A DNA stretch of 8,301 nucleotides, taken from Bauldia sp. GTDB lineage: Bacteria > Pseudomonadota > Alphaproteobacteria > Rhizobiales > Kaistiaceae. The translations under genes and the position numbers were made by a program. The stretch is from NCBI GenBank assembly GCA_020442095.1, contig JAGRKY010000166.1:1-8301 (forward strand), written 5' to 3'. Under the pieces are notes generated by a model, which made no database searches, was not told the DNA's origin, and saw only the letters and a list, made by a program, of their open reading frames with translations. Below, piece after piece: positions 1 through 8,301 of the stretch (positions are counted from its first letter, which is position 1; each line of letters begins with the position of its first letter).

Positions 1-1777
1 CGTCGCTGGCCTCCATCAGGTGGGCCGCGATCTTCTTGGCCTTGGCCTCGATCTTGTCGAGCGCGCGGTAGACCGCCGACGTGCCATTGCCAGCGGTTCG
101 CGAGCCGTAAGTGCCCATCCCCTGCTGGACCTTGTCGGTATCGCCCTCGATCACCGAGACGGAGTCGATCGGGATACCGAAGCGGTCGGCCGCGATCTGG
201 GCATAGGTGGTCTCGTGGCCCTGGCCGTGACCCAGCGTTCCGACCAGCACTTCCACCGTGCCGACGGGATTGACCTTGATCTCCGCCATCTCCCAGACGC
301 CGACGCCGGCGCCAAGCGCTCCGCCCTCGGCCGAGGACGGCGCCACGCCACAGGCCTCGATATAGCAGGAAAGGCCGATGCCGCGCAGCTTGCCGCGCTT
401 GGCCGCTTCCGCCTTGCGGGCCTCGAAATCATCCCACTTGGACGCGGCCAGAGCCTTGGTGAGCAGGCCGTCATAGTTGCCGGAATCGTATTTCCACAGC
501 ACCGGCGTCTGGTAGGGGAACTCGCGGACGAAGTTCTTTCGCCGCAGCTCCGCCCGGTCGACCCCCAGCTCGCGCGCCGCCTTCTCGATCAGCCGCTCCA
601 GCACATAGGTCGCCTCCGGCCGCCCCGCCCCGCGAACCGCGTCGACAGGGACGGTATTGGTGTAGACGGCGCGGACGTTCACATGGATGTTCGGGATGAC
701 GTATTGGCCCGACAGCAGCGGCGCATAGAGGTAGGTCGGGATCAGCGACGCGAAGAGCGACATGTAGCCCCCGAGATTGGCGATCGTGTCGACCTTCAGT
801 CCGAGCATCTTGTAATCGTCGTCAAATGCGATCTCGGCCGTCGTCACATGGTCGCGGCCATGGGCATCGGTCAGGAATGCCTCGTTCCGGCCCGATACCC
901 ATTTCACCGGCTTGCCGGCTTGCTTGGCCGCCCACAGGCAGACCACCTCCTCCGAATAGGTGAAGATCTTCGAGCCGAAGCCGCCACCGACGTCGGGCGC
1001 GATGATCCTGAGCTTGTGTTCGGGGGCGACGTTGATGAAGGCGGAGAGCACCACCCGCAGGAGATGCGGGTTCTGGGTCGTGTTCCACAATGTGAAATGC
1101 CCGTCCGACGACCGGTAGTCGGCGACCACCGCCCGTGCCTCCATGGCACTCGGCACGACACGGTTGTTGACCAGGTCGATCTTGACGACGTGCTTGGCGG
1201 ACTTGATCGCGTTATCGGTGGCGGCCGCGTCGCCGAGCTCCCAGTCGAAGATGAGGTTGCTGGGTGCCCGGCCGTGCTCCCAGACCGAGGAATCCGCCTC
1301 GAATTCGTGGATAGCCGGTGCGTCGGGCTTCAGCGCGTCGACGGGATTCGTAACCGCGGGGAGGGTTTCGTAATCGATCTGGACGGCTTCGGCGGCATCC
1401 TCGGCCTGGTCGCGGCTGCGCGCCACGACGGCGACGATCGGCTGGCCGACAAAGCGCACCTTGCCGATCGCCAGCGGCGGGTAGGGGCCCATCCGCATGC
1501 CCGAGCCGTTCTTGGAGGTGATCGCCCAGCCGCAGATCAGATGGTTGATGCCACCGGCCTCGAGCTCCTCTCCCGTATGGATGGCGACGACGCCGGGCAT
1601 CTTGCTCGCCTCTGACAGATCGACCGATTTGATATGCGCGTGGGCGTGCGGCGAGCGCACGAAGACCGCATGAAGCTGACCGGCGAGGTTGACGTCCCCG
1701 GTATAGGTGCCCTGTCCTGTCGTGAAGCGTCGATCTTCCTTGCGCGGAACGCTCGCGCCGATTCCGTCGTTTGCCAT
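1..1777 (-). CDS. CoxL-like molybdopterin-binding large subunit of a form II / xanthine dehydrogenase-family hydroxylase (3' end cut by the window)
   Basis: I translated this frame by hand from the ATG at 1777-1775. It stays open for 592 codons to base 1, so the C-terminus (roughly 180-200 residues in this family) lies outside. The gene encodes the catalytic Mo-cytosine-dinucleotide subunit of an aerobic hydroxylase, which oxidises a C-H or aldehyde group with water as oxygen source. Visible motifs are an N-terminal '[19 protein letters not shown]' (11-29), DVGGGFGSK (262-270), the active-site loop AVRGAGRPE (380-388), GHGQGHE (516-522) and GMGTYGSR (553-560). The loop has Gly-Ala-Gly where form I CO dehydrogenase has Cys-Ser-Phe, so the selanyl-cysteine site is missing and CO is not a safe substrate guess. 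The start is supported by AGGGGAGGA five bases upstream. It follows the small subunit after 46 bp, in the S-L order typical of form II clusters. The family call is firm; the substrate is unknown. Confidence 0.93.
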
Positions 1778-1823
1778 GATATTCCTCCCCTGGGCGTCCG
1801 TCGGCCGGAGCCCGTAATCCTGA

Positions 1824-2288
1824 TTACATCCGCGCCGCGCCGGCCTTGATGGCCTTCACGATGTTTACGTAGCCTGTGCAACGGCAGATGTTGCCCTCCA
1901 GCTCGCTTCGGATCGTCTCGTCGTCGAGGTCCTTGCCAAGCCGGCGAACCATGTCGACACCGGCCATGATCATGCCGGGCGTGCAAAAGCCGCACTGGAG
2001 ACCGTGGTTTTCGTTGAACGCGGCCTGCATCGGATGAAGGTCGCCGTCCTTCGCCAGCCCTTCTATCGTCTGGATCTCCGAGCCATCCGCCTGCACCGCG
2101 AGGGTCGTGCACGACTTCGTCGCGACCCCGTCGATCAGGACGAGACAGGCACCGCACTGCGACGTGTCGCAGGCGACATGGGTGCCGGTCAGAGCGAGCT
2201 GGTCGCGAAGCACCTCCACGAGCAGTGTGCGGTCCTCCGTCTCGACCGAGACGGGATCCCCGTTCACCGTCATTCCCACCGTTGTCAT
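1824..2288 (-). CDS. CoxS-like [2Fe-2S] small subunit of the molybdenum hydroxylase
   Basis: This 154-residue protein is the electron-transfer subunit that carries two [2Fe-2S] clusters between the Mo centre and the flavin subunit. The N-terminal plant-ferredoxin-like domain has C40, C45, C48 and C60 (CDTSQCGAC then KSC). The C-terminal helical domain has C99 and C102 (QCGFCTPGM) and C135 and C137 (ICRCTGY). All eight cluster ligands are therefore present, and the length is normal for the family (about 150-165). The ATG at 2288 is preceded by GGGAGG five bases upstream, and the gene ends in TAA at 1826-1824. It is the first gene of the leftward unit, 46 bp ahead of the large subunit, and is transcribed divergently from the GntR regulator. 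No flavin/CoxM subunit is seen in the window; in form II clusters it usually follows the large subunit, which would place it past the left edge. Confidence 0.95.
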
Positions 2289-2344
2289 TGAAACCTCCCG
2301 TTGTCGATTCTTCTCAGGCTATCCCGAGTTTGGCCAAAGGTCGA

Positions 2345-2373
2345 TTGACCGTCGACATCAGTCAAGATACCAT
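2345..2373 (+). promoter_or_regulatory. Possible sigma-70-type promoter for the regulator operon
   Basis: TTGACC (2345-2350) and TACCAT (2368-2373) are separated by 17 bp and match the -35/-10 consensus at 5/6 and 4/6. Transcription would begin near 2380, giving a leader of about 17 nt, with GGTATACC just downstream of the start site. An alternative -10, CATAAT at 2371-2376, matches better but sits 20 bp from the -35. This is a weak call from sequence alone. No comparably good minus-strand pair was found. Confidence 0.25.
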
Positions 2374-2387
2374 AATCTGGCATTACA

Positions 2388-2395
2388 GGTATACC
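2388..2395. promoter_or_regulatory. Candidate operator of the NanR-like regulator (GGTATACC)
   Basis: This perfect 8-bp palindrome ends one base before the regulator's ATG. Because it is palindromic, it contains GGTATA on both strands, and GGTATA is the repeat recognised by E. coli NanR. FCD-type GntR proteins in general favour GTATAC-like palindromes. On the minus strand a second, imperfect copy (TGGTATC, within 2366-2372) lies 24 bp away in the same orientation. Binding here would cover the only SD-like bases (AGG, 2387-2389) and the start codon, consistent with autorepression. Site identity is inferred. Confidence 0.45.
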
Positions 2396-2396
2396 A

Positions 2397-3104
2397 ATGT
2401 CCGGAACGGTGGTTCGCCAGCGCAAGCTCTACGAAGAAGTCGCGAAGCGACTGGAGCAGCGCATTGCCGACGGCGATTTCGCACCAAGCGACCCGCTTCC
2501 CTCCGAGCGCGAACTGATGGAAGCCTATGGCGTCGGCCGCCCGGCGATCCGCGAGGCGCTCTTCCATCTGCAAAATCTCGGCCTCGTCGAATTGCGGTCC
2601 GGAACCCGCGCCCGGGTCACGCGGCCGACGCCCAGGTCCGTCGTCGACGGGCTTTCGATCACCGCGCGGCACATGCTCGCCGCGCCGGACGGCATCCGGA
2701 ATTTCCAGGGCGTCCGGGTCTTCTTCGAGACGGGGCTGGCGCGACATGCGGCTCTCCATGCCACCGAGCAGGATCTTGCGGATTTCGAGGCCGCGCTTGA
2801 GGACAATCGCGAGTCGATCGGCGATTTCGGCCGTTTCGAGCGCACCGACGTGGCGTTCCACTACGTCCTCGCGGAGATCCCGCGGAACCCGATCTTCACG
2901 GCGATCCACGCCGCCTTTGCCGAATGGCTGCTCGAGCAGCGCCAGACGACGCTGGCGCCCGGCGTCGACGTCATTTCCTACAAGGCTCATCGCGCGATCT
3001 TCGAGGCGGTGGCGGCCCGCGATGCCGATCGCGCCGATCAGGCGATGCGCGAGCATCTCGAATTCGTCGCGCTGCGCTACGCCGACGTCAGCGAGGCACG
3101 CTGA
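2397..3104 (+). CDS. NanR-like GntR-family (FadR/FCD) transcriptional regulator
   Basis: This 235-residue regulator has an N-terminal winged helix-turn-helix (about 8-76; LPSERELMEAYGVGRPAIRE at 34-53, wing SGTRARV) and a C-terminal FCD effector domain (about 103-225). The FCD metal ligands are all visible: D151 and H155 (DVAFH), H198 and H220. The FCD part closely follows E. coli NanR, with segments such as VLAEIP.NPIF.AIH, PDGI.NF and R.FFE. It therefore probably senses an acidic sugar-like metabolite, although no sialic-acid genes are nearby. The ATG at 2397 has only a weak AGG as ribosome site, which overlaps the candidate operator, so a leaderless or short-leader message is possible. The gene shares one base with the following ABM gene. 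It most likely regulates itself, the downstream catabolic genes and perhaps the divergent hydroxylase. The family is certain; the effector is unknown. Confidence 0.92.
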   Translation: MSGTVVRQRKLYEEVAKRLEQRIADGDFAPSDPLPSERELMEAYGVGRPAIREALFHLQNLGLVELRSGTRARVTRPTPRSVVDGLSITARHMLAAPDGIRNFQGVRVFFETGLARHAALHATEQDLADFEAALEDNRESIGDFGRFERTDVAFHYVLAEIPRNPIFTAIHAAFAEWLLEQRQTTLAPGVDVISYKAHRAIFEAVAARDADRADQAMREHLEFVALRYADVSEAR

Positions 3105-3406
3105 TGTCCGGTTATGTGGTCATCGTCGATTTCGTGCTGAAGCCGGGCAAGCGCGCTGAATTCCGGACGATGATCGACAGCAACGCGCGTGCCTCCTTCA
3201 CCAATGAAGAGGGCTGCCGGCGGTTCGACGTGCTGGAGCCCTCGGGCGAGGCCGACCGGATCCTGCTCTACGAAATCTACACCGATCGCGCCGCTTTCGA
3301 GGCGCATATCGAGACCGGGCACTTCCGTCACTTCGATCGGGCAAGCGCGGATCTGGTTCTGAAGAAGTCCTTTGTCGAGTGCAGCCTCGTGGTGGAGGCC
3401 GCATAG
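3104..3406 (+). CDS. ABM-superfamily small protein (putative quinol monooxygenase, YgiN-like)
   Basis: This 100-residue protein has the single ferredoxin-like dimeric alpha+beta-barrel domain of the antibiotic biosynthesis monooxygenase family. It opens with the beta strand YVVIVDFVLKPGKRAEF (4-20). It then has the typical core 'NEEGCRRFDVLEP' (34-46), 'LLYEIYTDRAAFEAHIET' (54-71) and H73, F74 and F77 in the GHFRHF segment. Family members include cofactor-free monooxygenases and small isomerase-like or scavenging enzymes, so the reaction cannot be assigned. Its ATG overlaps the regulator's TGA by one base (TGATG), with GCGAGG seven bases upstream, so it is translationally coupled to the regulator. 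It may act on a reactive intermediate of the pathway encoded downstream, but that is only inferred from position. The ORF can be extended upstream in frame, but only inside the regulator gene, and the domain begins here. Confidence 0.85.
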   Translation: MSGYVVIVDFVLKPGKRAEFRTMIDSNARASFTNEEGCRRFDVLEPSGEADRILLYEIYTDRAAFEAHIETGHFRHFDRASADLVLKKSFVECSLVVEAA

Positions 3407-3558
3407 GTTCGATCGCCTGCGGCCGGAGAGCCGGGGCGGGGAAGAAGGGGGGAGATGGATTGATGGCAAGCCGGAGCCGCGAGGCGACAGCCGGTGTGAT
3501 GGTGTCGGGAGTCGTCTGATCGTGCCGTCGCTTCCATCAGGGCTGCGGGCGTGATCCG
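3407..3558 (+). other. 152-bp gap before the RuBisCO-like gene
   Basis: This is the only sizeable gap in the rightward unit. It is GC-rich, with a purine-rich run (GGGGAAGAAGGGGGGAGATGG, 3437-3457). I see no convincing promoter, terminator hairpin or GGTATA-like site. An 18-codon ORF at 3463-3519 sits behind a good SD-like run and ends in a TGA that is also the in-frame stop upstream of the RuBisCO-like gene. It has no recognisable content. Confidence 0.5.
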
Positions 3559-4806
3559 ATGAGCGAGCGTATCCACGCGCGTTACATTGTCGAGACGGCC
3601 GACGAGCCGCGCCGTGCCGTCGAGGTGATGGCCGGAGAGCAGTCGTCCGGGACGTTCGTCGCCGTGCCGGGCGAGACCGCCGACATCCGCGAGCGGTCCG
3701 GAGCGCGGATCGAAAGCCTGACCGTGGTCGAGGATGTCGACGCGCCCAGCCTGCCCGGCGCGCGAGCCGGCAGGATCTACCATCGCTGCGCGGTCGAACT
3801 GTCCTGGCCGCTCGAAAATCTCGGCCCGTCGCTGCCCAATCTGGTGGCGACCGTGGCCGGCAATCTCTTCGAGCTCAAGCAGTTCTCGGGTCTGCGGATT
3901 GTCGACATCGACCTGCCGCGGGCCTTCGCCACGCGCTACGAAGGACCGCAATTCGGCATCGAAGGCACGCGGCGCCTGTCCGGCGTCGCCGACGGTCCTC
4001 TGATCGGCACCATCGTCAAGCCGAGCGTGGGGCTGACGCCGGAGGCGACGGCCGATCTGGTCGATACGCTCGCCGGTGCCGGAATCGACTTCATCAAGGA
4101 TGACGAGCTCCAGTCCGACGGGCCGGCCTGTCCTTTCGAGGCGCGCGCCCGGATGGTGATGGCGGTGATCGACCGCCATGCCGACCGGACCGGCAAGAAG
4201 GTGATGTTCGCCTTCAATGTGACCGGTGACCTCGACGAGATGCGCCGCCGTCACGACCTGGTCCTGTCGCTCGGCGGCACATGCGTCATGGCCAGCCTCA
4301 ACTCGGTGGGACTGGTGGGAATGATCGAGCTTCGCCGTCACGCCGCGCTGCCGATCCACGCCCATCGCAACGGCTGGGGCTACCTGTCGCGCGCCCCGAT
4401 GCTCGGCTGGGATTACCCCGCCTGGTCCAAGCTGTGGCGGCTTGCAGGCGCCGACCACATGCATGTCAACGGCATCCGCAACAAGTTCTGCGAGGAAGAC
4501 GCCAGCGTCGTTCGTTCGGCGAAGAGCCTGCTGGCGCCGATGTTCCCCGACAAGCCCTGTGTCGCCATGCCGGTCTTCAGTTCGGGGCAGACCGCCGCGC
4601 AGGCCGCCGACACTTGGCGGGCGCTCGGCGGCACCGACCTGATCTATGCCGCCGGTGGCGGCATCATGGCCCATCCGGACGGAATTGCGGCCGGCGTGCG
4701 GGGGCTTCGGCAGGCCTGGGAAGCGGCCGCTTCGGGAATCGATGCCGAGGCCTATGCGAAGACCCATCCGGAATTCCGCGTCGCGCTGGAGGCACTCGCC
4801 CGATGA
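3559..4806 (+). CDS. oiaX: RuBisCO-like protein (form IV), probable 3-oxo-isoapionate-4-phosphate transcarboxylase/hydrolase or decarboxylase
   Basis: This 415-residue protein has the RuBisCO large-subunit fold: an N-terminal alpha/beta domain (about 1-125) and a TIM barrel (about 140-400). Equivalents of spinach RuBisCO residues are clear: E27 (E60), T32 (T65), N102 (N123), K154 (K175), K180 (carbamylated K201), D182 (D203), E183 (E204), H269-R270 (H294-R295), H302 (H327), K309 (loop-6 K334), S341 and G343 (S379, G381) and the phosphate-binding GGG at 366-368. Two differences stand out: F33 for W66 and S156 for K177. The metal site and phosphate sites are thus intact, suiting a Mg-enolate reaction on a phosphorylated sugar acid rather than CO2 fixation. 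The kinase and ApnO-like partners suggest it cleaves 3-oxo-isoapionate-4-phosphate to 3-phosphoglycerate and glycolate, or decarboxylates it. An in-frame TGA at 3517-3519 makes ATG 3559 the first possible ATG, though its ribosome site is poor. The next gene overlaps by ATGA. Confidence 0.88.
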   Translation: MSERIHARYIVETADEPRRAVEVMAGEQSSGTFVAVPGETADIRERSGARIESLTVVEDVDAPSLPGARAGRIYHRCAVELSWPLENLGPSLPNLVATVAGNLFELKQFSGLRIVDIDLPRAFATRYEGPQFGIEGTRRLSGVADGPLIGTIVKPSVGLTPEATADLVDTLAGAGIDFIKDDELQSDGPACPFEARARMVMAVIDRHADRTGKKVMFAFNVTGDLDEMRRRHDLVLSLGGTCVMASLNSVGLVGMIELRRHAALPIHAHRNGWGYLSRAPMLGWDYPAWSKLWRLAGADHMHVNGIRNKFCEEDASVVRSAKSLLAPMFPDKPCVAMPVFSSGQTAAQAADTWRALGGTDLIYAAGGGIMAHPDGIAAGVRGLRQAWEAAASGIDAEAYAKTHPEFRVALEALAR

Positions 4807-6179
4807 GCCTGCCGGCCGATCACCTCGTCGCCTTCTACGGCGACGACTTCACCGGCTCCGCGGCCGTCATGGAGGTCTTGACCTTCGCCGGGCTGCCCAC
4901 CGTCCTGTTCCTCGGCCCTCCGACCGGCGAGGACATCGGCCGGTTCGCGGGATATCGCGGCATCGGCGTCGCGGGCCTGGCGCGTTCGCGCAGTCCCTCG
5001 TGGATGGAGGAACACCTCCCGGCGATCTTCGGGACGCTTGAGCCGATCGGTGCCCCGATCACCCACTACAAGGTGTGCTCGACCTTCGATTCCGCGCCGC
5101 ATGTCGGCTCGATCGGCAAGGCGATCGATCTTGCGGCGCCGATCCTCGGCGGTGCCTGGCACCCGCTGCTGGTCGCTGCGCCGCCCATCCATCGCTACCA
5201 GGCCTTCGGCAATCTCTTCGCCACGGTCGAGGGTGTCGGCTACCGGCTCGACCGTCATCCGGCGGTATCCCGGCATCCGACGACGCCGATGGACGAAGCC
5301 GACGTCCGCCTGCACCTCGCCAGGCAGACCGACCGCAGCATCGGGCTCGTCGATTTCCTGTCGCTTGCGAGCGGCGACAGTGATGATGCCCTCAGGCGGG
5401 AGGTCTCGGGCGGAGCGGAGATCGTCGCCATCGACGTCCTCGACGAGGACAGCCTCGCCGAGGCCGGTCGGTTGATCTGGGAGAACCGCGGCGAAAGGCT
5501 GTTGGCGATCGGCAGCCAGGGGGTCGAATACGCATTGATCGCCCATTGGCGAAAGGCCGGCCTGATCGGTGAGGCACCGCCGCCGCGGAGCGCCGGCGCG
5601 GAGCGCATCGCCGCCGTCTCGGGTTCGTGTTCGCCGGTCACCGGTCGCCAGATCGAATGGGCGGAGATCAACGGCTTCGCCGGAATACGTCTCGAGGCCG
5701 AAGCGGCGGTCGACGAAGCCCGCTGGCGCGCCGCCATCGACCGGGCGGTCGAGCAGGCGCTGACCGTGCTCCACAAGGGAGCGGCACCGCTCGTCTTCAC
5801 CGCAAGGGGCGCCGACGACGCGGCCATCCCCGCGCTCAAGCAGGCAGTTCTCCGCTCGGGCGAGACCGAGGAGGACATCAACGCCCGCATCGGACACGGC
5901 CTTGGCACCATATTGAAGGCCGTCGTCACCAGCGGAGATGTCCGGCGCATCGCGATTGCCGGCGGCGACACATCGGGCCACGCATTGGCGGGAATGGGCG
6001 TCGACGCGCTGGAAGCGGAGGTCGAGCTTGCGCCGGCCTGCGCCATAAGCCGGGGGCGCTCCGGCGAACCGGCGCTCGACGGAATAGAGATCGCATTGAA
6101 GGGCGGGCAGATGGGGCCCGTCGACTTCTTCGGAATGGTCGAAAACGGTCGGCCACTGCATATGGGAGGACGTCAGTGA
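4803..6179 (+). CDS. oiaK: Four-carbon acid-sugar kinase family (DUF1537), probable 3-oxo-isoapionate kinase
   Basis: This 458-residue ATP-dependent kinase belongs to the DUF1537 family. The N-terminal substrate domain has GDDFTGS (13-19), with the DDxTG signature, and the family block HYKVCSTFDSAPHVGSIGKA (88-107). The C-terminal nucleotide domain has AVSGSCSPVTGRQ (271-283), FTARG (332-336), IAGGDTSGHAL (385-395) and LKGGQMGPVDFFG (432-444). Family members phosphorylate threonate, erythronate, 3-oxo-tetronate or 3-oxo-isoapionate. The last is preferred here because the gene lies between a RuBisCO-like gene and an apionate oxidoisomerase-like gene. The ATG overlaps the previous stop (ATGA), with GGAGG ten bases upstream. 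A longer upstream reading in the same frame lies wholly inside the RuBisCO-like gene and is rejected. The kinase family is secure; the substrate is an inference from context. Confidence 0.88.
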   Translation: MSLPADHLVAFYGDDFTGSAAVMEVLTFAGLPTVLFLGPPTGEDIGRFAGYRGIGVAGLARSRSPSWMEEHLPAIFGTLEPIGAPITHYKVCSTFDSAPHVGSIGKAIDLAAPILGGAWHPLLVAAPPIHRYQAFGNLFATVEGVGYRLDRHPAVSRHPTTPMDEADVRLHLARQTDRSIGLVDFLSLASGDSDDALRREVSGGAEIVAIDVLDEDSLAEAGRLIWENRGERLLAIGSQGVEYALIAHWRKAGLIGEAPPPRSAGAERIAAVSGSCSPVTGRQIEWAEINGFAGIRLEAEAAVDEARWRAAIDRAVEQALTVLHKGAAPLVFTARGADDAAIPALKQAVLRSGETEEDINARIGHGLGTILKAVVTSGDVRRIAIAGGDTSGHALAGMGVDALEAEVELAPACAISRGRSGEPALDGIEIALKGGQMGPVDFFGMVENGRPLHMGGRQ

Positions 6180-7027
6180 CGCAAACGATCGCCCTGCTCG
6201 GCGCGGGCGGAAAGATGGGCGTCCGGCTCGCCACCAACCTTGAAGGCGAACCCTATGACGTCCTTCATGTCGAGGTCAGCGAGGCCGGCCGGCAGCGCCT
6301 CAAGGAAGCCACCGGCGTCGAATGCGTCGAGATGGGACAGGCATTGGGCAGCGCGGACGTCGTCCTGATGGCCGTGCCGGACGCCCTGATCGGCAAGATC
6401 GCCCACGGCTTCATCGATCAGGTCCGGCCCGGTACCGGCATCATCATGCTGGATGCCGCCGCGCCCCATGCCGGCGAGTTGCCGAAGCGCGACGACGTCA
6501 CCTATTTCGTGACGCATCCCTGCCATCCCTCGATCTTCCGCTACGAGCCGACGCGCGAGGCGCAGAAGGATTATTTCGGCGGCGTCCTTGCCATGCAGGC
6601 GATTGTTTGCGCCCTGATGCAGGGCCCCGATGCCGACTATGCTCGGTGCGAAGCGATCGCGAAGGCGATCTACAAGCCGGTCAGCCGGTCCCATCGGGTG
6701 ACGGTGGAAGACATGGCCATTCTCGAACCGGCGATGTCGGAGACGATCGCCGCCACCTTGATCACCGCGCTTCGCGAGGCGACGGACGCGGTCGTCGCCA
6801 GGGGCGTGCCGGCCGAGGCGGCCAGGGATTTCATGCTCGGACATATCGGCATCGAGATGGGGATCATCTTCGAGGATTTCCCGGGCCGGTTCTCCGATGG
6901 CGCGCTCTACGCCATCGAGAAGGCGAAGCCGAAGCTTCTCAGGGATGACTGGCTCAAGGTGCTTGAGCCGGACGAGGTGATGGCCAGCGTCAGGGAAATC
7001 TGCAATCCGGGAGGAAAGGCGTCATGA
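6176..7027 (+). CDS. apnO: D-apionate oxidoisomerase-like NAD(P)-dependent dehydrogenase
   Basis: This 283-residue protein begins with a Rossmann nucleotide site, ALLGAGGKMGVR (6-17), and VLMAVPD (63-69). It continues into a helical domain of the phosphogluconate dehydrogenase C-terminal type. Family-like segments are TYFVTHPCHPSIF (109-121), FGGVLAMQAIVCALMQGP (134-151), HRVTVEDMAILEPAMSET (173-190) and DFMLGHIGIEMGIIF (218-232). H114, H117, E184 and H223 are likely functional polar residues. I recognise the pattern as ApnO, which oxidises and isomerises D-apionate to 3-oxo-isoapionate. The kinase and RuBisCO-like genes upstream would then act on its product. The start is GTG at 6176, which overlaps the kinase stop (GTGA) and has GGGAGGA five bases upstream. 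The much longer upstream reading in this frame is inside the kinase gene. The main alternative is an oxidoisomerase for a related branched or tetronic acid. Confidence 0.8.
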   Translation: MTQTIALLGAGGKMGVRLATNLEGEPYDVLHVEVSEAGRQRLKEATGVECVEMGQALGSADVVLMAVPDALIGKIAHGFIDQVRPGTGIIMLDAAAPHAGELPKRDDVTYFVTHPCHPSIFRYEPTREAQKDYFGGVLAMQAIVCALMQGPDADYARCEAIAKAIYKPVSRSHRVTVEDMAILEPAMSETIAATLITALREATDAVVARGVPAEAARDFMLGHIGIEMGIIFEDFPGRFSDGALYAIEKAKPKLLRDDWLKVLEPDEVMASVREICNPGGKAS

Positions 7028-7806
7028 GGGCCCGAGTTGGTGCCGTCCTGGATCGCCCGGGGCTCCGGCTCGGGCACTATGTCGGCGAGTTCGTCACCCC
7101 CGGCATCGGATACATCCTGAAGGAAGCCGGCGCCGAATATGTCTTCTTCGACATGGAGCACAGCGGCAATTCCTTCGAGAGCCTGAACCGCGCGCTCCGC
7201 TACTTCGAGGCAGCCGACGTCCCGGTTCTCGTGCGGGTTCCCTCCGACTCCTACGATCACATCGCCCGCGCCCTCGACATCGGCGCCCAGGCCATCATCA
7301 TCCCGATGCTCGGTTCGGTGGAGCAGGCGAGGTCGGTCATCGAAAAGATGAAATATACCCCGATCGGCAAGCGGGGCCTGGCTCCGGCGCTCGGCAACGA
7401 TCGCTACCACATGGGGCCGGTGGTGGAGGGCCTTGCCGCCGCCAACGAGCGCAACCGGCTGATCGCCCTGATCGAGACCGCCGAGGGCGTCGAGAATGTC
7501 GACGGCATTGCCGCGCTCGAGGGGGTCGACGCCCTCTGGGTCGGGCACATGGACCTCACCGCCAGCATGGGGATTCCGGGACAATTCGATCATCCCGACT
7601 ACAAGGCCGCCCTCAACAAGGTCCTCGAAGCCGGCAAGCGCCACGGGAAGGGGCTGGGGCGGATGGTCACCGACATCGCCTCCGGCGTCGCGCTCGCCGG
7701 GGAGGGATGGGACCTGATCGTCTATCACGGCGACGTCTGGCTGCTGCAGGTCGCGCTGCGCCAGGGGCTGGACGGCATCCGGTCCGGCGTTGGAGGCGGG
7801 ACATGA
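7024..7806 (+). CDS. HpcH/HpaI-family class II (metal-dependent) aldolase
   Basis: This 260-residue TIM-barrel enzyme belongs to the family that splits or forms 2-keto acids from pyruvate (or a pyruvate analogue) and an aldehyde. Residues match HpaI almost number for number: the general acid/base H46 in FFDMEHSG (41-48), substrate-binding R71 in LVRVP (69-73), and metal ligands E151 (IETAEGVEN) and D177 (VGHMDLTASMGIPG). The PIGKRG turn is at 113-118. The length is typical of the family (about 250-265). The ATG overlaps the previous stop (ATGA), with GGGAGGA at 7009-7015 as ribosome site. It is not part of the basic ApnO-OiaK-RuBisCO-like sequence that I know. It may handle a two- or three-carbon product such as glycolaldehyde, glyoxylate or hydroxypyruvate, or define a side branch. 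The substrate is not deducible here. Confidence 0.88.
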   Translation: MRARVGAVLDRPGLRLGHYVGEFVTPGIGYILKEAGAEYVFFDMEHSGNSFESLNRALRYFEAADVPVLVRVPSDSYDHIARALDIGAQAIIIPMLGSVEQARSVIEKMKYTPIGKRGLAPALGNDRYHMGPVVEGLAAANERNRLIALIETAEGVENVDGIAALEGVDALWVGHMDLTASMGIPGQFDHPDYKAALNKVLEAGKRHGKGLGRMVTDIASGVALAGEGWDLIVYHGDVWLLQVALRQGLDGIRSGVGGGT

Positions 7807-8301
7807 CGGACGTCTTCCGCGTCGCGCTCTCGGGCGATTTCAACAAGGCCGACGGGGCGCCGACCTTTCCCGACTTCGACCTCGATCCGTTGCGGGACGA
7901 ACCGAATGTCGAGCTGCGGTTCCTGGAATCGGAGGACACGCTGAGTGGCCGGCAGCTCGAGGATTTCGACGCGCTCATCCTCCTCGCCCATCGCTTCGCC
8001 CGGCAAAGCGTGCCGGAGAGCGGGCGGCTGACGGTCGTCGCCCGGTTCGGCGTCGGCTACGATACGGTCGATGTCGATGCCTGCACCGATGCCGGCATCG
8101 CGCTGGTCATCACGCCGGACGGCGTGCGCCGGCCGGTCGCCGTGTCGATCATGACCTTCATGCTCGCCCTGACCGGCAAGCTCAAGGTCAAGGATCAGCT
8201 GACCCGCCAGGCGGCGGCAGGATTTGCGAAGCGCTCGGATCACATGGGCGTCGGCCTCGTCGGCCGCACGCTCGGGTCGCTCGGCATCGGCAATATCGGC
8301 G
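7803..8301 (+). CDS. D-2-hydroxyacid dehydrogenase, 3-phosphoglycerate/hydroxypyruvate reductase-like (cut by the window's right edge)
   Basis: The frame is open for 166 codons from ATG 7803 to the window end, about half of a normal 310-340-residue protein. The N-terminal catalytic domain shows VVARFGVGYDTVDVDAC (78-94), the hinge-type signature of the family. It is followed by RRPVAVSIMTFMLAL (109-123) and the start of the Rossmann NAD(P) domain, ending GSLGIGNIG (158-166; GxGxxG). The catalytic Arg-Glu-His residues would lie outside, so activity cannot be judged. The family interconverts 2-keto and D-2-hydroxy acids. In this operon it could reduce glyoxylate, hydroxypyruvate or a product of the neighbouring aldolase, but that is inference. 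The ATG overlaps the aldolase stop (ATGA), with GGAGG at 7792-7796, so the operon evidently continues past the window. Confidence 0.88.
   Translation, partial: MTDVFRVALSGDFNKADGAPTFPDFDLDPLRDEPNVELRFLESEDTLSGRQLEDFDALILLAHRFARQSVPESGRLTVVARFGVGYDTVDVDACTDAGIALVITPDGVRRPVAVSIMTFMLALTGKLKVKDQLTRQAAAGFAKRSDHMGVGLVGRTLGSLGIGNIG

Follow-up and report, generated by a model that had tools for sequence, protein, structure and literature searches.

A locus of Bauldia sp. was found whose genes probably form an OiaT-type set for the catabolism of apiose-derived D-apionate. It lies in an 8,301-nucleotide stretch of DNA (the window), which corresponds to positions 39073-47373 of contig C147 in a 4.19 Mb genome that is 98% complete. 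On the + strand, the genes for a GntR regulator, a small ABM-domain protein, a RuBisCO-like protein (RLP), a kinase, an ApnO-like enzyme, an HpaI aldolase, and a 2-hydroxyacid dehydrogenase (HADH) follow one another in this order, and the last five, from RLP to HADH, are chained by four-base overlaps. The gene content, coupling, family relations, and residue pattern of the locus were observed directly. An earlier sequence-only reading of this DNA had described three genes overlapping by four bases each, which was borne out. These genes encode the RLP (3559..4806), the kinase (4803..6179), and the ApnO-like enzyme (6176..7027), all on the + strand, and the overlaps (ATGA between RLP and kinase, GTGA between kinase and ApnO-like enzyme) are exactly four bases each. 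ATGA overlaps also join the ApnO-like gene to the aldolase gene and the aldolase gene to the HADH gene. The protein families named in that reading were recovered as well: the RLP matches Pfam RuBisCO_large with 222 bits, the DUF1537-type acid-sugar kinase matches SBD_N with 156 bits and NBD_C with 109 bits and has the motifs GDDFTG, STFDSAP, and GGDTSG in its translation, and the ApnO-like Rossmann enzyme matches PGDH_C (PF16896) with 206.6 bits. Its proposal of D-apionate catabolism is now supported by sequence comparisons, namely an OiaK model score of 548 bits for the kinase, oxidoisomerase labels on 11 of the 120 ApnO relatives listed, and OiaT-labelled relatives of the RLP at 68% identity.

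The RuBisCO-like protein

The RLP is predicted to be OiaT-like, i.e., a 3-oxo-isoapionate-4-phosphate transcarboxylase/hydrolase, rather than OiaX-like. One paper describes transcarboxylation/hydration of 3-oxo-isoapionate-4-phosphate by the RLP of Xanthobacter autotrophicus and decarboxylation of the same compound by that of Agrobacterium radiobacter (PMC6302742). The sequence-only reading had left these two activities side by side; the former is favoured here, while an OiaX-like decarboxylase does not fit the comparisons. The window RLP shares 67.5-68.4% identity with seven proteins named 3-oxoisoapionate-4-phosphate transcarboxylase/hydrolase (OiaT) by JGI, which are seven of the 120 matches listed when a Xanthobacteraceae relative of the RLP was used as the query, and 47% identity with two aligned OiaX proteins. 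On the curated OiaX model (NF042437; cut-off, 700) it reaches 456.9 bits; the OiaX of Bauldia litoralis reaches 784 bits.

The active-site residues point in the same direction. The RLP retains 15 of the 19 RuBisCO active-site residues examined (E60, T65, N123, K175, K201, D203, E204, H294, R295, H327, K334, S379, G381, G403, and G404) and departs at four positions (K177 to S, H298 to W, L335 to F, and G380 to S), and all 19 residues are identical in the window RLP and the seven OiaT-named proteins. The residue signature ETNKSKDEHRWHKFSSGGG was found in 34 of the 77 aligned RLP rows, the window RLP counted. At positions 60, 123, 327, and 379, all 39 OiaX rows have D, G, Q, and G or C, whereas the window RLP has E, N, H, and S, and so does a form I RuBisCO control (two rows of one protein). 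Since transcarboxylation/hydrolysis needs RuBisCO-like carboxylation and hydrolysis and decarboxylation does not, the kept residues may mark the OiaT type. In the tree of the 77 rows, the OiaX proteins group in a single clade with support of 100/100, which arises inside the grade of the window-type RLPs, though the inner forks near the clade of the window RLP are weak. The public records consulted mostly call members of this clade relatives of the RuBisCO large chain. The four further positions at which OiaX differs can be tested for what separates carboxylation and hydrolysis from decarboxylation within the RuBisCO fold.

If the RLP were an OiaX-like decarboxylase, its product would be L-erythrulose-1-phosphate. 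The two types share the overall family, and OiaX is the best match of the RLP among the curated models; given the bit score far below the cut-off and the four deviating residues, on which the assignment as OiaX itself was rejected, and given that a scan of nine window open reading frames (ORFs) matched no sugar-phosphate isomerase family, such an activity is very unlikely. Two further RLPs in the alignment (L201 and L202) differ from both residue patterns in other ways; in that of L202 (8989, genome G159), catalytic positions are altered (E204 is A, H294 is D, and K334 is A). An RLP and a kinase of these families were also seen on a Haloarcula plasmid (L204, 3728-8254), with an HpaI-like aldolase (32%) and a TRAP transporter close by.

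The kinase and the ApnO-like enzyme

The OiaK model (NF042436) is by far the nearest model to the kinase, which scores 547.5 bits against a cut-off of 700. On the 3-oxo-tetronate kinase model (NF043035) it scores 135.2 bits (cut-off, 350) and on the D-threonate kinase model 47 bits. Thus, by model scores, a threonate/erythronate kinase was ruled out, and the grouping with threonate/erythronate enzymes that the sequence-only reading had named as speaking against its proposal did not occur. The genome encodes a true 3-oxo-tetronate kinase separately, in an OtnC-OtnK pair at L194 (contig C173, 2675-4539); with 569 bits, this OtnK passes the 3-oxo-tetronate kinase cut-off of 350.

The ApnO-like protein has a PGDH_C and a Rossmann domain, is homologous to labelled ApnO proteins, and matches PDB entry 5t57 with 336 bits. 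The 11 relatives that carry the JGI label D-apionate oxidoisomerase are 69-79% identical to it; the rest of the 120 listed are hypothetical, generic, or unnamed. The enzyme is predicted to act on D-apionate, as far as homology tells. A second ApnO-like PGDH_C protein (44% identical) was seen at L195 (contig C150 16000-35900) at 9229-10059, with matches to a ribose-type ABC transporter and a GntR regulator near it.

Proposed pathway and comparison with known systems

Plant cell walls contain the branched sugar apiose. In the proposed pathway, imported apiose or its lactone would be converted to apionate, the lactone being opened by an ApnL homologue encoded near the window. The ApnO-like enzyme would turn apionate into 3-oxo-isoapionate by oxidation and rearrangement, the OiaK-like kinase would phosphorylate this compound, and the RLP would shift the carboxyl group and hydrolyse the product to 3-phosphoglycerate and glycolate, the products of the OiaT reaction. 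Because the kinase and the ApnL homologue score below the curated OiaK and ApnL cut-offs, activity on apionate, like every other substrate and reaction of the locus, is something that I infer.

Carter et al. reportedly described in 2018 that Xanthobacter catabolizes D-apiose via ApnO, OiaK, and OiaT. The window shares with this route the three core enzymes, an RLP of the OiaT-labelled clade, and a nearby ApnL homologue. It differs from it in having no close D-apiose dehydrogenase of the Gfo/Idh/MocA family and in having a molybdenum (Mo) hydroxylase beside ApnL, and the locus adds genes for a MalEFGK-type ABC importer, an HpaI aldolase, a hydroxyacid dehydrogenase, and an ABM protein. The OiaX-type apiose clusters of Mesorhizobium, Aureimonas, and Martelella have the ApnL, ApnO, and OiaK families and a NanR-type regulator in common with the window; in contrast, the window RLP is 47% identical to OiaX and has other active-site residues, and an apiose dehydrogenase is present in every surveyed OiaX locus. 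Strain LCG007 grows on D-apiose and has genes for a lactonase, an apiose dehydrogenase, an oxidoisomerase, a kinase, and a decarboxylase, according to its description (PMC11747546). The pathway called D-apiose degradation I, of Pectobacterium and Escherichia, concerns the same sugar, and a screen for it used one kinase gene and two transketolase genes (PMC13001218). Such kinase and transketolase genes are not among the window ORFs scanned. As for the 3-oxo-tetronate pathway (OtnK-OtnC), the HADH-containing module shares a locus with OtnK in nine surveyed cases, but the window kinase belongs to a different family and the OtnK-OtnC genes of this genome lie on another contig.

Survey of ApnL loci

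How common are these arrangements? I took 141 ApnL loci (57, the best 80 of at least 580 confirmed relatives, and 4); five duplicates were dropped, leaving 136, with the locus under study excluded. As 113 of the 136 loci are at least 14 kb long, genes past contig ends can be missed; the loci are mutually related, the identity thresholds were set by the analyst, and the Fisher p-values are descriptive only. ApnL-family genes are present in 51 of the 297 genomes of the order and in all five of the genus, while matches above the cut-off of the ApnL model are found in seven of the 297. RLPs of the window type occur in 24 of the 136 loci, together with OiaK in all 24, ApnO in 20, and an apiose dehydrogenase in nine. 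Thus, the grouping of RLP, OiaK, and ApnO is not due to chance. OiaX is present in 36 loci, all 36 with an apiose dehydrogenase. The MalE-type importer is found in 42 loci, one of which has an apiose dehydrogenase and ten a window-type RLP. HADH occurs in 35 loci, accompanied by HpaI in 33, and ABM in 15, always with both. OtnK (17 loci) and OiaK (62 loci) never occur in the same locus, and HADH is found together with OtnK in nine.

A tree of ApnL was made by a quick method from 107 rows, omitting 26 OiaX-type rows, rows shorter than 480 residues, and duplicates. The ApnL homologue of this study is a member of one group (35 rows, support 96), which includes those of L087, L089, and L125, found with ApnO, apiose dehydrogenase, and OiaX, and that of L134, found with RLP, OiaK, and ApnO. 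In L125, a single contig carries ABM-HpaI-HADH-importer-ApnL and then ApnO, apiose dehydrogenase, and OiaX. In a different ApnL group, the same importer is found with RLP-OiaK in L068, L084, and L086 (one ApnL match per genome) and with OtnK in L067. Since ApnLs of the same group occur with RLP-OiaK, OiaX, or OtnK sets, related lactonases seem to serve different downstream sets, and the survey suggests that one lactonase family is common to three alternative downstream modules.

On a Microvirga plasmid, a window-type RLP lies with a Gfo/Idh protein, an ApnL homologue, a kinase, and a PGDH_C protein, and on a Roseibium plasmid, which also has a lactonase candidate, with a Gfo/Idh protein, a kinase, and a PGDH_C protein. 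A single 6 kb contig (L171) has three HpaI-like matches next to ApnL and HADH.

The lactonase and the entry step

The sequence-only reading had seen no lactonase in the window and left the entry step open. The window indeed has none, but an ApnL homologue is encoded close by on the - strand (contig 48836-50794), beginning 1.5 kb beyond the window and ending a divergent row of Mo hydroxylase genes. It scores 590 bits on the ApnL model (NF049900; cut-off, 750), and no solved structure related to ApnL was found at E up to 1. In this row, the 2Fe-2S subunit (1824..2288; PF01799/PF00111), the Mo-cofactor large subunit (1..1777, cut by the window, with the complete gene at contig 45597-47993; PF02738/PF20256/PF01315), the FAD subunit (contig 48010-48810, outside the window), and ApnL follow one another on the - strand with gaps of 46, 16, and 25 bases. 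Beyond the ApnL homologue, a polyamine-type ABC transporter (two permeases, an ATPase, and a binding protein) was seen in the opposite direction at contig C147 50848-54743.

The full-length Mo large subunit scores 664.6 bits on the CO-dehydrogenase model (TIGR02416; cut-off, 991) and 657.2 bits on the glyceraldehyde dehydrogenase alpha model (NF041018; cut-off, 790). It lacks AYRCSFR, which I take to be the motif of aerobic CO dehydrogenase, and with 665 against 991 bits, a CO dehydrogenase was ruled out. In each of the other Bauldia genomes compared, four in all, this subunit is conserved at 82-83%, and a Mo large subunit of at least 38% identity lies near ApnL in two of the 136 loci, those of B. 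litoralis and genome G228.

For sugar oxidation, the best candidate in this neighbourhood is the Mo hydroxylase next to ApnL, though a tentative one. More likely than not, the enzyme has no part in the sugar pathway and is a CO-dehydrogenase-like enzyme or aldehyde oxidase of a general kind that rearrangement placed beside ApnL; this is compatible with apionate catabolism by the locus. Copies that are 82% identical occur in two Bauldia genomes (G297 and G298) with no ApnL downstream, an 83% identical copy in a third (G299) also has none, although that contig is 5.7 kb long and ends about 350 bases past the FAD gene, and 60-63% identical relatives in two other genera have no ApnL, RLP, OiaK, ApnO, HpaI, HADH, or importer (SBP) markers within 20 kb. 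Moreover, B. litoralis, G297, and G299 each have a Gfo/Idh relative at 47-50% identity, which could be an apiose dehydrogenase; four Gfo/Idh members from apiose clusters are 46-65% identical among themselves. Both these Gfo/Idh relatives and the absence of ApnL next to the G297 and G298 copies, and to that of G299 as far as its short contig shows, weaken a role as a dedicated apiose oxidase. On the other hand, the row from the 2Fe-2S gene to ApnL is tightly spaced here and is retained in B. litoralis, and the enzyme is the only close copy in its genome (next best, 46%), in which no close apiose dehydrogenase was found. By eye, the neighbours of the Mo hydroxylase genes in G298 and in G311, a genome of another genus, resemble housekeeping genes. 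Uptake of a ready-made lactone or acid is another possible entry, because 41 of the 42 loci with the MalE-type importer show no apiose dehydrogenase. No description of a Mo-dependent apiose entry was found in the literature searched, with relevance judged by titles.

Arrangements in Bauldia and the added genes

Two unusual traits, the Mo hydroxylase beside ApnL and the joining of an apionate core to a GntR-ABM-HpaI-HADH-ABC-ApnL module, characterize the locus; the sequence-only reading had left out the Mo hydroxylase, the HpaI aldolase, the hydroxyacid dehydrogenase, and the ABM gene, which make it unusual. In G297 and G298, a single row runs GntR-ApnL-RLP-OiaK-ApnO-HpaI-HADH-SBP, and its genes are 70-90% identical to those of the window except for ApnL and GntR (37-43%). 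G299 has GntR-ApnL-RLP-OiaK-ApnO-SBP, with HpaI further on. B. litoralis (L110) shares the divergent 2Fe-2S-Mo-FAD-ApnL and GntR-ABM-HpaI-HADH-SBP rows at 64-83% identity, with HpaI at 49%, but it has no RLP, OiaK, or ApnO there; relatives of these occur elsewhere in its genome at 49-59%, with OiaX on another contig. The HpcH/HpaI aldolase of the window (7024..7806, +; PF03328, 106 bits) is of a subtype shared with G297 and G298 (70-73%). Since the RLP-kinase-ApnO trio and HpaI resemble G297 and G298 and the divergent Mo-ApnL row resembles B. litoralis, the window looks like a hybrid of two Bauldia arrangements, judging from these identities.

HADH, a D-isomer 2-hydroxyacid dehydrogenase (7803..8301, +; PF00389/PF02826), leaves the window and reaches contig 38522; its relatives in PDB are glyoxylate reductase/phosphoglycerate dehydrogenase. 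Beyond it, 3′ of the window, lie a MalE-type binding protein, permeases, a UgpC-type ATPase, and, in convergent orientation, a DUF4432 protein. The ABM-domain protein (3104..3406, +; PF03992, 67.5 bits) is LsrG-like, with 37.7 bits on the LsrG model (NF007791; cut-off, 135).

A possible other substrate or second route

Several observations weigh against D-apionate catabolism of the OiaT type. The OiaT name is absent from all 120 matches listed with the window RLP as the query, and where the name does occur, it is the label of the source, presumably based on homology, the characterised Xanthobacter OiaT not being among the compared sequences. The proteins score below the curated cut-offs of the OiaK, OiaX, and ApnL models. 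The 98% complete genome has no close homologue of D-apiose dehydrogenase (Gfo/Idh/MocA; best match, 28%, 100 bits). The ApnL group of this locus mostly adjoins HADH, importer, or 3-oxo-tetronate (Otn) genes, not apiose dehydrogenase, and stands apart from the ApnLs found in Mesorhizobium-type apiose sets and in Kaistiaceae RLP sets. Finally, the module occurs in genomes G224, G024, G283, and G181 (completeness 85, 93, 96, and 86%) with no match to the ApnO family or RLP there.

These points would suit a locus that acts on the lactone of another branched or four- or five-carbon sugar acid, the RLP trio having been recruited into a GntR-ABM-HpaI-HADH-ABC-ApnL module for a tetronolactone-like substrate. 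Each of the four genomes has one PF07005 kinase (237-254 bits) that fits the 3-oxo-tetronate type, as far as the type can be told from the score, the module can elsewhere run into 3-oxo-tetronate kinase/decarboxylase genes, as the nine loci with HADH and OtnK show, B. litoralis carries the module without the trio, and the ApnL of this study clusters with ApnLs of such modules. Nevertheless, this appears unlikely: some ApnLs of this group belong to apiose sets that also hold ApnO, apiose dehydrogenase, and OiaX, the window kinase is far from the tetronate kinases, and OiaK and OtnK exclude each other across the surveyed loci. A second, undescribed apionate route in these loci, of which the window would hold parts together with the first, and in which the Mo hydroxylase would replace the NAD-dependent apiose dehydrogenase in Bauldia by virtue of its placement with ApnL, seems quite unlikely. 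In such a route, ApnL would make apionate, HADH would oxidise C2, the HpaI aldolase would remove formaldehyde, the LsrG-like ABM protein would shift the carbonyl, and OtnK and OtnC would convert 3-oxo-tetronate to dihydroxyacetone phosphate and CO2. Chemically, 3-oxo-tetronate, the substrate of OtnK, would arise from apionate by oxidation at C2, release of formaldehyde in a retro-aldol reaction, and a shift of the carbonyl. If true, the route would give one role to each enzyme gene of the GntR-ABM-HpaI-HADH-ABC-ApnL-OtnK-OtnC rows (e.g., Dongia deserti, L111). A second apionate route and a Mo-dependent apiose entry are not known to have been described, and the literature searched gave no description of the former by the same title-based judgement; the shared lactonase family makes both directly testable.

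The regulator and the intergenic region

The regulator gene (2397..3104, +) encodes a GntR/FCD protein of the NanR subfamily (NF003011, 271 bits; cut-off, 260). The divergent intergenic region between both gene rows (2289..2396) contains a weak sigma-70-like site at 2345-2373, the sole one in 1700-4000 (0.3 expected). By eye, this region also carries GGTATACC, with ATACC 16 bases before it, which is possibly a candidate operator of the NanR-type regulator. The letters of the window differ from the assembly contig C147 at 22 of the 8,301 positions, eight of them within the first 26 bases.

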